This document shows positions 30,961-37,061 of a stretch of 38,899 nucleotides of DNA, one piece after another (position 1 is the stretch's first letter; every line of letters starts with the position of its first letter). A program made the translations under genes and the position numbers. This DNA is from Terriglobia bacterium (GTDB taxonomy: Bacteria > Acidobacteriota > Terriglobia > JAIQFV01): contig JAIQFY010000050.1 of the NCBI GenBank assembly GCA_020072965.1, positions 1 to 38,899 of the forward strand, in the 5' to 3' direction. The notes beneath the pieces are model-generated. The model saw nothing but the letters and a program-made list of their open reading frames with translations. It had not been told where the DNA came from and did not search any database.

Positions 30961-31021
30961 ATCCTGAAGCGATTGTTCGAACCTTCTGGAAACCCCACCT
31001 GAACGCCGCTGGAGGATGAGA

Positions 31022-31351
31022 ATGCCACAATCCGTGCCGGTCACGATGCTCGTCTCCTACTATCCCAAAAAAGGGAAGGAGAAAAAGCTGCTCGCCTTAA
31101 TTAAGAAGCAATGGCCTGTGCTCCATCGCGCCGGCCTGGTGTCGAAAATACAACCTCAGATCTGGCGCGCTTCGAACAAGCGGTCTAACCGGCTTTTCTT
31201 TGTGGAGATGTTTCAATGGAAGGACGCCCGGGCTTCCGACATCGCCCACCGGACCCCCGAGGTGATGGCGATCTGGGGGCCGATGGAACCACTCCTCGAG
31301 AATCTTCAGCTATCTCGCATCGAGTCCATCCCGTTGGCCTCTGTACGGTGA
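31022..31351 (+). CDS. Small protein with probable dimeric alpha-beta barrel fold
   Basis: A 109-aa protein beginning MPQSVPVTMLVSYYPKKGKEKKLLALIKKQWP: a first strand then a helix with the layout of antibiotic-monooxygenase/Dabb-like barrels. Later RLFFVEMFQWKDARASDIAHRTPEVMAIWGPMEPLLENL gives a strand, a loop and two helices typical of that fold. No catalytic residue can be assigned. ATG 31022 is preferred because GGAGG is six bases upstream; the ATG at 31016 sits too close to that site. Confidence 0.7.
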   Translation: MPQSVPVTMLVSYYPKKGKEKKLLALIKKQWPVLHRAGLVSKIQPQIWRASNKRSNRLFFVEMFQWKDARASDIAHRTPEVMAIWGPMEPLLENLQLSRIESIPLASVR

Positions 31352-31410
31352 GTCAACCTCTCGGAATGAAATCCGAACCCTTCAATTGAATAGACATTCA
31401 GGTCACAAGA

Positions 31411-31600
31411 CCCTGCGCTTTTTGCGCCAAAGGCGCTGTGGGATATACCCTTGCGCTGGCCCGCTCTCGGCCCTGAGGCGGGATATTGCACCCGCTTCTC
31501 TGCGCCGAAGGCGCTGCGGATTGAAGCCCAGCGTTGGCCGCCTTGCGACCTACGCTGGGTCAAGGCGCCCCCCTCCCCCACAACCCCAACGGGGTTGTGA
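31411..31600 (+). repeat. REP-type palindromic block, copy 1
   Basis: The block contains GCGCC(A/G)AAGGCGCTG, GGATATACCCTTG, GGATTGAAGCCCAGCGTTGG...CTACGCTGGG and the hairpin CAACCCC-AAC-GGGGTTG at 31581-31597. The same order of words returns at 32348-32534 in the same orientation. It lies directly beside the Y1 transposase gene, as REP copies do beside their transposase. Confidence 0.75.
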
Positions 31601-31632
31601 CCATTGAATTCGCTAACAAGACATGACACGCA

Positions 31633-32088
31633 CTAATCCCAAACATACCGTTCATCCCATTCCAACTGATGTTTTCGCAAGAGAGTCCGTAACTCCTCCT
31701 GAAATCCGATTTTTCGATGATGGCTTTCCTGTTCGATAATGTAGCTTCGCACCTTTTCCAAATCAGACTGGCTCACTGAGAACGCGGCGTATCCCGCTTG
31801 CCATTCAAACTTCGCAAAACAAGAGCCTTGTTCCTTGAGCCAAAGGCTCGAGACCCGCTTCAGTTCTTTCACCCAATCGGCCTGACTAATGGTTCGACCT
31901 AAGCGGGCCAAAACGTGGGCATGGTCTTGAATCCCACCGATTTGAATTGGGGGACAATCAAGGGTCTTTGAGATGCCCCCCAAATAGGCATAAAGCGCCG
32001 CCCGAAGACTTTTGTCTTTGAGAAAGGGCCAACGCTCTTTTGTTGAGAACACTAGATGAATGTAAACTGCGGAAAGAGATTGCGGCAT
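31633..32088 (-). CDS. Y1 (HUH) transposase, REP-associated IS200-like
   Basis: A 151-aa single-strand DNA transposase of the IS200/IS605 TnpA superfamily. Family marks are HLVFSTKERWPFL near the N-terminus, the HUH pair D-H-A-H in IGGIQDHAHVLARL, and the C-terminal WQAGYAAFSVSQSDLEKVRSYIIEQESHHRK, whose tyrosine in VRSYI is the nucleophile. In this family such proteins act on hairpins formed by palindromic repeats, and three copies of such repeats flank the gene. No TnpB partner is present. All key residues are in place, so it could be active. The start ATG is preceded by AGGAGTGCC. Confidence 0.9.
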   Translation of the reverse strand: MPQSLSAVYIHLVFSTKERWPFLKDKSLRAALYAYLGGISKTLDCPPIQIGGIQDHAHVLARLGRTISQADWVKELKRVSSLWLKEQGSCFAKFEWQAGYAAFSVSQSDLEKVRSYIIEQESHHRKIGFQEELRTLLRKHQLEWDERYVWD

Positions 32089-32145
32089 GGCACTCCTCTT
32101 TTGGAACGGGGGAAGGGTTAAAAATAGGGGGGCTCAATCATGCCA

Positions 32146-32260
32146 CAATCCCGTTGGGATTGCGGAATTATTCATGGCCTTGGTTCCCAACGTAGGCCGC
32201 AAGGCGGCCAACGTTGGGCTTTGAGGCATAGCACCGTTGGCGCTGCATTCCCCCAAGGGC
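32146..32260 (-). repeat. REP-type palindromic block, inverted copy
   Basis: CAATCCC-GTT-GGGATTG (32146-32162) and CCCAACGT-A-GGCCGC-AA-GGCGGCC-A-ACGTTGGG (32186-32218) are the reverse-complement counterparts of the two hairpins in copies 1 and 3. With copy 1 it places the transposase gene between inverted REP blocks. Confidence 0.7.
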
Positions 32261-32347
32261 CACTCAACACGTCCCAGCATTGCTTCCAACCGGGCATTCT
32301 AGGTCTCGAACTCTGAAATTCAACAGGCGCGCTAGCCACAACCCCGC

Positions 32348-32534
32348 CGCCCTTTCCTGCGCCGAAGGCCCTGTGGGATATACCCTTGGGCCCGCTCTCG
32401 GGCCTACGGCGGGACATTGCAACCCACCTTTCTGCGCCGAAGGCGCAGTGGATTGAAGCCCAGCGTTACCCCGACCTTCGGGGTTACGCTGGGTCAACGC
32501 GCGCTTTTCCGCACAACCCCAACGGGGTTGGGGC
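32348..32534 (+). repeat. REP-type palindromic block, copy 3
   Basis: It repeats the word order of copy 1. CCCAGCGTTACCCCGACC / TTCGGGGTTACGCTGGG (32459-32493) is a near-perfect 35-nt palindrome. CAACCCC-AAC-GGGGTTG (32514-32530) is identical to the hairpin at 31581-31597. Confidence 0.75.
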
Positions 32535-32647
32535 CTCCCGATTCTACAAAACCATTGAAATCTCCCCAAAAAAGCGCTAGTCTGCGCTCACATCCCAAAA
32601 CACTCATCGGATTGCGGGCAATCGCCCCACAATCGAAGGAGGATTCG

Positions 32648-33090: not shown

Positions 33091-33474
33091 ATGGCAGACC
33101 TATCGAAACAAGTCATGTTGAACATTGATGCCGGACCGGACGCCGATCCGGAGGATGTGGCAGAGCTCACGCATCGACTTCGGAACGAACTCCTGGAATT
33201 GGACGTCGACGGGGTGGAGCCGGTCCACGGCGGCACCGCACCCGCAGGCGCCAAGGGAGACCCGATCACGTTGAGTGCGCTCATCGTTACCCTGGCGCCC
33301 GTCGTGCTCCCCTCCCTGATCACGATGGTGCAGTCGTGGCTCAACCGTCATGACCGCACCAGCCTGACGCTGGAGAGGAATGGCGAGAAAGTTACGCTCA
33401 CAGGAAATCCTTCCAAGCAGCAACAACAGGTCATTGAATCCTGGATGAGCCGGCAGAGTGCGGCCACCGCATGA
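33091..33474 (+). CDS. EACC1-like effector-associated component
   Basis: A 127-aa protein with the layout of the effector-associated constant component (EACC1) of predicted bacterial conflict systems. An N-terminal strand (QVMLNIDAG) is followed by a helix (DPEDVAELTHRLRNELLELDV) and DGVEPVHGGTAPAGAKGDPITL, then a hydrophobic segment (LSALIVTLAPVVLPSLITMVQSWL, residues 61-84) and a basic turn. A beta-hairpin TSLTLERNGEKVTLTGN and a short helix QQQVIESWMSR complete it. EACC1 is typically encoded next to trypsin- or caspase-type effectors. ATG 33091 is preferred because AAGGGGG lies five bases upstream; the frame stays open further left but without coding features. Its TGA overlaps the next ATG (ATGA, 33471-33474), so the two are co-translated. 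Confidence 0.75.
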   Translation: MADLSKQVMLNIDAGPDADPEDVAELTHRLRNELLELDVDGVEPVHGGTAPAGAKGDPITLSALIVTLAPVVLPSLITMVQSWLNRHDRTSLTLERNGEKVTLTGNPSKQQQQVIESWMSRQSAATA

Positions 33475-36400
33475 GCGGCGTCAAGAGCGCGCTGGTGATC
33501 GCCAATTCGCAGTACGAGCACACGGGCCTGCGACAGCTGACCGCGCCCACGCAGGATGCGCAGGCCTTGGCGGAGGTCCTGGCCAACCCCGCGATCGGGG
33601 GATTTGAAGTCCGGACGCTCGTCAATCAACGCTGTGCCGACGTCATGCACGAAATTGAGATGTTCTACAGTGGGCGCACTCGCGACGACCTTCTGCTGCT
33701 CTATTTTTCCGGCCATGGCTTGAAGGACGAGGACGGCAAACTCTACCTGGCGACGCTCAACACCGATCCGCAGTGGCTGCGCTCGACTGCCATCCCCGAC
33801 CATTTTGTCAATGAAGTGATGACCGGCAGCCGCTCCAAACGGCAAGTGCTGCTCCTGGATTGCTGTTACAGCGGGGCCTTTGCCAAGGCCTTGCTGGCGA
33901 AAGGCGAGGCGACCGTGGTCTTGAAAGACCACTTCGAAGGACGCGGACGGGTGCTGCTGACCGCCTCGGACGCCGTTCAATATTCCTTCGAATCCGGCGT
34001 CTTTGAGTGCGCCCGCGAAAGTTCAGGCTCGGTGTTTACTCAAACGCTGGTCGAGGGGCTTAAGTCCGGAGAGGCCGATCAGGATGGGGACGGCCTGGTC
34101 TCCCTCGGCGAACTCTACGATTATGTGCATGACCGCGTCCTGGATGTGACCCCCCAACAACGGCCCATGAAGTGGGAATTTGATGTTGAGGGTGAAATTG
34201 TCATCGCCCGCAATCCCGCCCCGTTTGTCAATCCCACGGACCTGCCCCAGGACGTTCGCGACGCGATCAGCAGCAAGTTTCCCAGTATCCGCGAAGAGGC
34301 CATCCACGAACTGGGACGTATGCTCCGCGGGAAACATCGCGGCCTGGCGCTTGCGGCCCGCATAGCGCTGAAGACTCTCACCGGCGACGACAGCCGCAAG
34401 GTCTCGGACGCGGCCGAAAAATGCCTTGCGGCAAATCCGGCGCCCGCCTCCCTCGAGGAAACAATTTCCTCGAGTTCCACTGGGGCCGGGGCTCCTCCGC
34501 CCGCTCAACCGAAAGAAGAGCACACATCCCGCGCCGCACAGAAGATGCAAGAGGAAGCAGAGAGGAAGGAACGCCCTGGGCCCGAAGCAGAACGAGTGGA
34601 GATCCAAAAGGTGGAAGCGGAACACCTGGCCCCTGAAAAAGAAGAGAGCCGAAAACACTGTGAGCGGGGTCTCGCACTTTTCAAGAAGGATGATTTCGTG
34701 GGTGCCATCGCCAAGTATCGAGAGGCGCTCCGGTTGGATAAGGACAATGCGGAGGCGCACAACTGCCTGGGTGATGCCCTCTTCGAAAAAGAGGACTGGG
34801 ACGGGGCCATGGCCGAGTTTCGTGAAGCTCTGCGCCTGAACCCCAAATTCGCCGAAGCCCAGCGAAACATCGGTGTCGTCTTCGAGCAAAAGGGGCAGTT
34901 GGACGAGGCGATGGAAGAATATCGGAAGGCGCTGCGGTTGAACCCGGATTCTGCCGAAGCCCACACGGCGGTGGCCAACGGACTCCGCGTGAGGGGAGAT
35001 CTCGAGGGGGCGCTGGCTGAGTGCCGCGAAGCCATTCGTTTAAAACCTGCCTACGCTAGTGCGCACAATATTTGTGGTTTGGTCCTCTCTGACAAAGGCG
35101 ACCTGGACGAGGCCCTCGCCGAGCACACCACAGCCCTGCATCTAGCGCCGGACGACTGGGTCCTGCACTATAACCTCGGATTAGTCCTCGCTGGCAAAGA
35201 AGATTTGAACGGGGCCGCAGCAGAATACCGGGAAGCCATCCGGCTGAATCCGAAAGCCGCTGCGGCGCACAACTCCCTCGGCGACATACTCTTCAACACG
35301 AATGACCGCGAGGGTGCGATCGTCGAGTTCCGGGAGGCGATCCGGCTGAAGCCTGATTATGCCGAGGCTCACGGAAACCTCGGCTATGTGCTTTCTGCCA
35401 AGAAATACCTGGCCGGGGCCATTGAAGAATTGCGCGAAGCGATCCGCCTGAAGCCGGAGCTGGACTGGGCGCGCAGAGAGTTAGTACGCGTGCTCAAAGA
35501 AAAAGGCGACTTGGACGGAGCGGTGAACGTGTGCCGCCGGGCGGTCAGCCTAAGGCCGGAGAGTCGAGAGGCGCGCAGGGACCTGCTTGATGTGCTCAAA
35601 GAAAAAGGCGAATCCGATGAAGCGTTAGCTGTGTGTCGCGAAGCGGTCCGTCTCAACCCTGCTGATGCAGATGCCCACGTGGTTCTTGCCGACGTGCTTA
35701 AGGAGAAAGGCGACCTGGATGGGGCCATTGCCGAGTACCGCGAGGCCGTTCGACTGGATCCGAATGGGAGGTCAGGGGGGATCATCAGCCGGAGTTTCCG
35801 GGGAAGCCTGGTCGACGCGCTTAAAGAAAAGGGAGACTCAGAAGCCGCCATGGCCGTGTGCCGTGAAGCGGTCCGCTTAAGGCCGGACGATGCCGGCGCA
35901 CGGTCCGATCTTGCCTCTGAGCTCGAAGAACAAGACGACCTGGATGGGGCCCTCAGCGAACGCCGAGAGGCCGTCCGCCTTGAGCCCGACGATTCCTGGA
36001 AACATGGCCACTTGGCCGATTTGCTGCAAAAGACAGGTGACCTGGATGGAGCCATCGCTGAGTACCGTGAGGCGGCCCGGCTCAGTGGGACCTCATGGGA
36101 CCGAAACAAGCTCACGGAGGTGCTGAATATAAAAGGCGACCTGGATGGAGCCATGGCGGTCTGCCGTGAAGCGATCCGATTGAATCCGGATGATGCTGCT
36201 GCCCACGCCGATCTGGGCGACGCACTCAAGCAGAGAGGCGACCTGGAGGGGGCCATTGTCGAATATCGTGAGGCCTGCCGCCTGGAGCCTGATAAAGCTA
36301 CCCGGTTCAGCACGGTCGGCTCAGCTTTGAAGGAGAAAGGGGACTTGGCGGGGGCCATTGTCCAGTACCGCGAAGCGCTCCGGGTGGATCCAAACTGGAC

Positions 36401-37061
36401 CTGGTGCCGGCAGGAGCTAGTTGATGCGTTGAAAAAGAAGGGCGATATGAATGGGGCTCTCGCGATGCTGCGCGAAGTACTCCAATCGAAGCCGGACGAT
36501 GCCCTGGCTCACAACGACGTTGGAAATTTGCTGTATAACAAGGGCGACTACGCCGAGGCCATTCCGGAGTATCGTGAGGCCATCCGTCTGAAGCCGGACG
36601 ACGGGGTGCTCCATTTCAATCTCGCCCAGGCACTCCAACAGAAAGGCACATTGGAAGGCGCCATCGCCGAATGCCGGAAGGCCATCAGTCTGAAACCAAA
36701 CGACGCAGGCATCTACAATGCTCTGGGAAACATGCTCTTTTCAAGGGACCTCTTTACCGACGCAGGCACTAAATATAAGCAGGCGATCAGCCTCGATCCA
36801 TCCGTCGGGGTCTACCATCATAACCTCGGTCACGTACTCTTTCGGCAGGGTGACGTAGAAAGCTCGATCACGAAATACCAGGAAGCAATCCGCCTGGACC
36901 CAAACCTTGCCGTGGCGCACTTTAATCTGGGTGCGGCTTTGGAAGGCAAAGGCAACCGGATCGCTGCTCTGAGAGAATACCGCGCGGCCCACAAAATCGA
37001 GCCCGGCAATTCCGATTACCGGGCTGCCTCCGACAGACTCTGGGCCCAGTCGAAGCATTGA
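33471..37061 (+). CDS. Caspase-like (C14) protease with 23 TPR repeats
   Basis: A 1196-aa protein. Residues 1-250 form a caspase-like domain with the dyad H82 in YFSGHG and C132 in LLLDCCYSGAF. Its p10-like part contains a D-x-D-G-D-G-L-V-S-x-x-E loop (203-214). Residues 255-325 look like a small HEAT-like helical linker (IREEAIHELGRML...LALAARIALKTL). About 330-395 is low-complexity and charged. From 397 on there are 23 TPR repeats of 34 residues, many with GDLDGAIAEYREAIRLxPDD. No signal peptide or ATPase domain is present. The protein is expected to be a cytosolic protease whose TPRs sense or hold a partner; the overlap with the EACC1-like gene implies joint action. The trigger and substrate are unknown. 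Confidence 0.9.
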   Translation: MSGVKSALVIANSQYEHTGLRQLTAPTQDAQALAEVLANPAIGGFEVRTLVNQRCADVMHEIEMFYSGRTRDDLLLLYFSGHGLKDEDGKLYLATLNTDPQWLRSTAIPDHFVNEVMTGSRSKRQVLLLDCCYSGAFAKALLAKGEATVVLKDHFEGRGRVLLTASDAVQYSFESGVFECARESSGSVFTQTLVEGLKSGEADQDGDGLVSLGELYDYVHDRVLDVTPQQRPMKWEFDVEGEIVIARNPAPFVNPTDLPQDVRDAISSKFPSIREEAIHELGRMLRGKHRGLALAARIALKTLTGDDSRKVSDAAEKCLAANPAPASLEETISSSSTGAGAPPPAQPKEEHTSRAAQKMQEEAERKERPGPEAERVEIQKVEAEHLAPEKEESRKHCERGLALFKKDDFVGAIAKYREALRLDKDNAEAHNCLGDALFEKEDWDGAMAEFREALRLNPKFAEAQRNIGVVFEQKGQLDEAMEEYRKALRLNPDSAEAHTAVANGLRVRGDLEGALAECREAIRLKPAYASAHNICGLVLSDKGDLDEALAEHTTALHLAPDDWVLHYNLGLVLAGKEDLNGAAAEYREAIRLNPKAAAAHNSLGDILFNTNDREGAIVEFREAIRLKPDYAEAHGNLGYVLSAKKYLAGAIEELREAIRLKPELDWARRELVRVLKEKGDLDGAVNVCRRAVSLRPESREARRDLLDVLKEKGESDEALAVCREAVRLNPADADAHVVLADVLKEKGDLDGAIAEYREAVRLDPNGRSGGIISRSFRGSLVDALKEKGDSEAAMAVCREAVRLRPDDAGARSDLASELEEQDDLDGALSERREAVRLEPDDSWKHGHLADLLQKTGDLDGAIAEYREAARLSGTSWDRNKLTEVLNIKGDLDGAMAVCREAIRLNPDDAAAHADLGDALKQRGDLEGAIVEYREACRLEPDKATRFSTVGSALKEKGDLAGAIVQYREALRVDPNWTWCRQELVDALKKKGDMNGALAMLREVLQSKPDDALAHNDVGNLLYNKGDYAEAIPEYREAIRLKPDDGVLHFNLAQALQQKGTLEGAIAECRKAISLKPNDAGIYNALGNMLFSRDLFTDAGTKYKQAISLDPSVGVYHHNLGHVLFRQGDVESSITKYQEAIRLDPNLAVAHFNLGAALEGKGNRIAALREYRAAHKIEPGNSDYRAASDRLWAQSKH

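Follow-up and report, generated by a model that had tools for sequence, protein, structure and literature searches.

What kind of mobile system is formed by a small tyrosine transposase gene that lies among palindromic repeats in an acidobacterial genome? The window analysed here (the whole stretch of DNA, a 38,899-nucleotide contig of a Terriglobia bacterium) carries such a gene, and the original prediction had described it as the locus of a REP-associated tyrosine transposase (RAYT), in which a palindromic block, present twice in direct and once in inverted orientation, surrounds an intact Y1 transposase. Repeat analysis of the window agreed with this arrangement, the matched parts of the block copies being 79–89% identical, and the transposase gene is intact, encoding a 151-aa Y1_Tnp protein. 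The features of the locus are as follows.

31411–31605, plus strand: downstream palindromic block, a full three-hairpin unit and a degenerate second unit (repeat analysis).
31502–31514, plus strand: small hairpin h2 of the downstream unit, GCGCCGAAGGCGC, followed by a 12-nt linker at 31515–31526 that ends in GAAG (read from the sequence).
31527–31559, plus strand: large hairpin h1 of the downstream unit, CCCAGCG...CGCTGGG (read from the sequence).
31581–31597, plus strand: small hairpin h3 of the downstream unit, CAACCCC-AAC-GGGGTTG (17-mer search).
31633–32088, stop codon included, minus strand: tnpA, the 151-aa HUH/Y1 transposase with DHAH, WQ and YIIEQESHH motifs (ORF, Pfam, AlphaFold).
About 32142–32243, minus strand: upstream proximal unit, inverted, with h3 at 32146–32162, h1 at 32186–32218, the linker at 32219–32230 (guide strand ending in AAAG) and h2 at 32231–32243 (sequence, repeat analysis, 17-mer search).
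About 32339–32535, plus strand: upstream distal block, direct to the downstream block, a degenerate unit and a full unit.
32434–32446, plus strand: h2 of the distal upstream unit, followed by the linker at 32447–32458 ending in GAAG, h1 at 32459–32493 and h3 at 32514–32530.
31397–32542, no strand assigned: segment in whose place the sister species G320 has about 100 bp containing a single degenerate unit (comparison with G320).

We call guide strand the strand on which a unit reads h2, linker, h1, h3; along it, the small hairpin h2 is followed by the 12-nt linker, the large hairpin h1, a further ∼20–25 nt and the small hairpin h3. Both proximal units turn h1 and h3 toward tnpA. The h3 hairpins at 31581–31597 and 32514–32530 have the same letters, and that of the inverted copy reads CAATCCC-GTT-GGGATTG. 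From this identity the copies had been taken to be recent. The 17-bp identity is real; however, because it is complete only in this hairpin and the two direct blocks are ∼81% identical overall, it argues weakly for a recent origin. In the sister species G320 the flanking sequence is kept and the 1146-bp cassette is missing, a difference compatible with gain of the cassette as well as with its deletion through recombination of one direct block with the other. Directly adjoining the cassette lies a 111-aa ORF (31016–31351, plus strand) with no Pfam match, whose conserved counterpart in the sister species occupies the syntenic position. Further along the window is a 1196-aa ORF (33471–37061, plus strand); in its first 667 aa, the portion searched, a caspase (Peptidase_C14) domain precedes numerous TPR repeats.

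The protein matches Pfam Y1_Tnp with an E value of 5.8e-20. Its AlphaFold model (pLDDT 94) is closest in fold to the TnpA proteins of ISDra2 and IS608, the match to E. coli TnpAREP (4er8) being weaker, and a profile search of PDB sequences again returned IS608 and ISDra2. Y116, Q120, H124 and W96-Q97 are invariant in 65 relatives, and H123 is conserved in at least 90% of them; the first HUH motif is DHAH in the window copy and DHVH in the consensus of the relatives. The Y---NP tyrosine motif of the class 2 proteins (RAYT/TnpAREP) is absent from TnpA, which has YIIEQESHH at this place. In the survey of Quentin et al. (2018; PMC6006769), TnpAY1 subclass 1.2 is characterized by Y---Q--HH, DH[IV]H and WQ motifs and a length of about 148 aa, and was found without REP, mostly in Cyanobacteria and Bacteroidetes. 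TnpA has the Y---Q--HH, DH[IV]H-type and WQ motifs within its 151 aa. Because of Y116-xxx-Q120-xx-HH and of its closest solved relatives, the TnpA proteins of IS608 and ISDra2, the protein, as assigned from motifs and fold, fits the IS200-like subclass 1.2 and not the classical RAYTs. Thus, the original prediction stood as regards a REPtron-like layout of inverted hairpins and dispersed copies, but not as regards the class of the protein. Against NF033573, the curated NCBIfam model of IS200/IS605, TnpA scores 50.2 bits, under the cut-off of 55. Full-length tnpA paralogues in the window's genome are just 43–47% identical, and several truncated copies are also present.

Two further observations concern the same protein family. 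A more diverged paralogue in the window's genome (L012, C22:30546-33911), ∼30% identical to the window's protein, has as its neighbours tandem arrays in which another hairpin is repeated (GCCCGGTTCACCGGGC / CCCGCTGGTTTACCGGCGGG); gene and arrays apparently make up a further repeat family and its dedicated transposase. IS200-like matches also occur inside unusually long frames, at C22:53766-54128 (395 aa) and C22:62982-63344 (374 aa) of this genome and at C4:67873-68658 of G259 (282 aa); in the last, two such matches in a row in one frame possibly form a tandem HUH protein.

The prediction had made its case depend on the palindromes being present elsewhere in the genome. A search with the 17-mer at up to two mismatches on both strands gave 19 matches, which fall at 14 distinct sites, while the reversed control gave 1; these numbers are far above chance and rule out fortuitous palindromes. 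The 195-bp block gave 30 significant matches with a shared core of ∼100 bp. As both recur genome-wide, the repeats of the window belong to a dispersed family. As regards the anticipated location between genes, long ORFs of this genome contain 3 of the 20 solo copies, compared to 11 expected. Clear solo dimers are few in this genome.

The same repeat already has a name as an RNA. A cmscan of the window yielded one match only, RF01687 (Acido-Lenti-1 RNA), at 32433–32493 on the minus strand (E 0.001 in a local search; 27.5 bits, below the gathering score of 37), and the alignment of this copy contains the hairpin, the 12-nt linker and the small hairpin. The RF01687 motif is the complement of h2-linker-h1 of the repeat unit, so that the family probably consists, for the most part, of DNA repeats instead of copies of an RNA gene. 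Among the matches listed for the window's own genome, 93 belong to RF01687, 12 of them above the gathering score, and two of these 12 adjoin tnpA paralogues (C96:55151 and C66:4474). The motif was found within 1 kb of 12 of the 16 tnpA paralogues or fragments; conversely, 24 of 72 matches lie within 1 kb of such a gene or fragment, where ∼0.5 would be expected. The RF01687 copy downstream lies on the strand of the gene and the upstream copy on the opposite strand, the few exceptions being the distal window copy and part of a crowded cluster on C99.

We then gathered 80 loci from named genomes of many phyla by protein similarity to TnpA. An Rfam scan of the 15 closest of these gave no match to RF01687, probably because window-like units have long h1 loops, and we therefore used a covariance model built from the window's own genome only (R1) and a search in which h2-gap-h1 was sought by base pairing alone, with no sequence model. 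R1 matches were present within 250 bp of tnpA in 65 of the 80 loci; they cluster in the nearest 150 bp and in most cases flank the gene in inverted orientation. Pairing alone recovered h2-gap-h1 in 50/76 upstream and 52/76 downstream flanks (1–4 of about 62 distant windows and 0–2 in shuffled flanks), and AG are the two bases before h1 in 75 of these 102 structures. Rfam's own threshold for RF01687 was passed by nine matches adjoining six of the genes. The left and right units of one gene are 75% identical and units of different loci 46%, which is what cognate pairs should show. At the 5′ foot of the hairpin, neither the GT[AG]G tetranucleotide typical of RAYTs nor the GTAG/GGAG-like motif that had been predicted was found in the window, where the three linkers end in GAAG, AAAG and GAAG; across the family the foot is xAG in 110 of 116 aligned units and GTAG in just 3.

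The association also holds across the phylum. In a sample of 297 genomes, RF01687 was found in 85 and the transposase in 71; G087, G122, G136 and G236 were removed because their transposase matches are canonical IS200, leaving 67 carriers. RF01687 is present in 59 of the 67 carriers versus 26 of 230 non-carriers (odds ratio 58, p 1e-32, a value inflated by the relatedness of the genomes). Counting by genus gave the same pattern (41/44 carrier versus 15/123 non-carrier genera). Genomes having canonical IS200 alone contain RF01687 in 1 of 8 cases, so canonical IS200 is not predictive; the co-occurrence is specific to subclass 1.2. For three of the eight carriers that lack an RF01687 match (G105, G114 and G141), the own-genome model detects units adjoining tnpA. 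At least 10 genomes contain several to many units yet no recognisable subclass 1.2 gene, and gene loss, incomplete assemblies or other carriers must therefore be invoked. Eight genomes of Acidobacterium type (G036, G062, G113, G140, G156, G196, G211 and G234) have a dozen or more units, some as inverted pairs, and no recognisable subclass 1.2 gene; they contain either orphan repeat populations or assemblies with missing parts.

Units also occur in pairs away from the gene. Among the matches listed for seven named genomes, 25 of 27 close pairs of RF01687 without a gene are in the −/+ orientation, with a start-to-start spacing of 122–244 bp, and the 20 gene-free examples that we examined are symmetric dimers of two units. 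Two inverted units that recur as one repeated dimer, the hallmark of a REPIN, were thus found in related genomes. Two dimer sites of G300 are empty in congeners, the diverged intergenic flanks hiding the exact edges and the target site. Five of the fetched dimer loci fall in long ORFs versus 3.7 expected, a comparison that the shortness of the loci leaves without power.

We conclude, with a probability of roughly 0.8, that the locus is a REPtron/REPIN-like system built on an IS200-type TnpA of subclass 1.2, in which the flanking blocks are the cognate units and Acido-Lenti-1 is the DNA substrate. The association with the transposase, the inverted layout, the likeness of left and right units, the gene-free inverted dimers and the presence or absence of copies between related species were observed and support this. 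With somewhat less confidence, we favour the broader proposal that the Acido-Lenti-1 'RNA' is both the DNA substrate and the mobile unit of subclass 1.2, and that this REPtron/REPIN system arose on the IS200 side independently of the classical RAYTs and is widespread, with Verrucomicrobia, Planctomycetes, Acidobacteria and Bacteroidetes among the several phyla that contain it.

Other explanations were weighed against this one. Acido-Lenti-1 is classed as a probable RNA by Rfam and by the 2010 paper; it could be a real structured RNA or a bidirectional terminator beside which the transposase merely inserts, since GC-rich hairpins are able to end transcripts and the motif is present without the gene in some genomes. 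A functional RNA is expected to tolerate G-U pairs more than A-C. On the Rfam-annotated strand, the stems of the 116 aligned units contain 1346 Watson-Crick, 6 G-T and 20 A-C pairs; the low mismatch total is partly selected, as the units were collected with a model built from Watson-Crick-rich copies, but the missing G-T excess is not so explained. Because of this missing excess, and as the motif is half of a symmetric repeat, a role as DNA is favoured. Since the units flank the gene left and right in inverted orientation and match one another in sequence, and since the co-occurrence is specific to subclass 1.2, we consider the RNA or terminator explanation unlikely. In the parts available, the few open-access papers that name the family do not link it to a transposase, although priority is uncertain; a 2026 paper speculates on regulation of Tannerella proteases from the Acido-Lenti-1 annotation (PMC13298647).

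An ordinary IS200/IS605 insertion sequence, whose left and right ends are the hairpins and whose decayed remains are the scattered copies, would account for the closeness of TnpA to the IS608 and ISDra2 proteins in sequence and fold, for its Y---Q motif and for the truncated tnpA copies. It was rejected, being slightly less probable still than the RNA: IS200 copies within one genome are nearly identical (PMC6006769), compared to paralogues here at 43–47%; the flanking hairpins are inverted and not on one strand; the NF033573 score is below its cut-off; gene-free inverted dimers are common; and no near-identical whole elements with the same two ends were found at several sites. The units might also be passengers of other elements, such as MITEs of DDE transposases or larger repeats, with a merely historical link to tnpA. 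In G121 (L172-L174, L176-L184, L187 and L188), near-identical elements of ∼170 bp carry a central Acido-Lenti-1 unit between inverted termini (GTGTCTGTGTCATAGC or AGTCTGTGTGAGAACT) and are bordered by 6–8 bp that resemble target duplications. From its sequence, this element is best described as a MITE with a REP-like passenger, and its copies were rejected as proof that the unit moves by itself; other carriers therefore spread the unit too. But in other genomes the unit or dimer is bare of such termini, and in many phyla the flanks of tnpA carry the unit alone, which makes a general passenger origin the most improbable of these readings.

Compared with REPtrons (RAYT/TnpAREP, TnpAY1 class 2, with REPs, BIMEs and REPINs), the REPtron-like system described here shares the HUH/Y1 gene, inverted cognate hairpins, dispersed copies, gene-free inverted dimers, a guide-like tetranucleotide with A-G at the hairpin foot and diverged paralogues. 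It differs in having Y---Q--HH and not Y---NP, a foot of xAG with variable first bases in place of GTAG/GGAG, and a unit of three hairpins with a fixed 12-nt linker. Subclass 1.2 as surveyed (PMC6006769) agrees in the Y---Q--HH and WQ motifs, the length of about 150 aa and the diverged copies; the survey, however, reported neither REP nor IS hairpins, whereas here cognate hairpins are present, the phyla are many and a single genome has as many as 16 copies or fragments. RF01687 has the same h1, 12-nt linker, h2, small-hairpin loop and CT after h1, but Rfam defines it as an sRNA and covers half of the repeat; in the present system it is one unit of a transposase-associated inverted DNA repeat, to which h3 adds a third hairpin. 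IS608 and ISDra2 of the IS200/IS605 family have in common with the system described here the fold, the HUH and Y---Q catalytic motifs and a guide tetranucleotide 5′ of the hairpin; their hairpins are on the same strand, while those described here are inverted, occur as small solo units and dimers, and come with no near-identical element copies.

The tetranucleotide 5′ of the hairpin directs where cleavage occurs in IS608, and TnpAREP has been proposed to work likewise, a CT being selected through pairing to the A and G of GTAG (PMC8266576). The conserved xAG foot suggests that the same rule may apply in subclass 1.2. A TnpA dimer would bind the hairpins of the units in single-stranded DNA, the conserved A-G of the hairpin foot would, as in the TnpAREP proposal, determine cleavage at a CT, and the DNA would be cut and rejoined by Tyr116; in this manner the units may spread as solos and as inverted dimers of ∼200 bp.

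This reading pairs an orphan transposase subclass with a repeat and an orphan Rfam family with a partner, and these are repeats that annotation pipelines now label as ncRNA. If this is a second origin of REP-like systems, their general traits, namely inverted units, the AG foot and dimers, would become comparable between two lineages.
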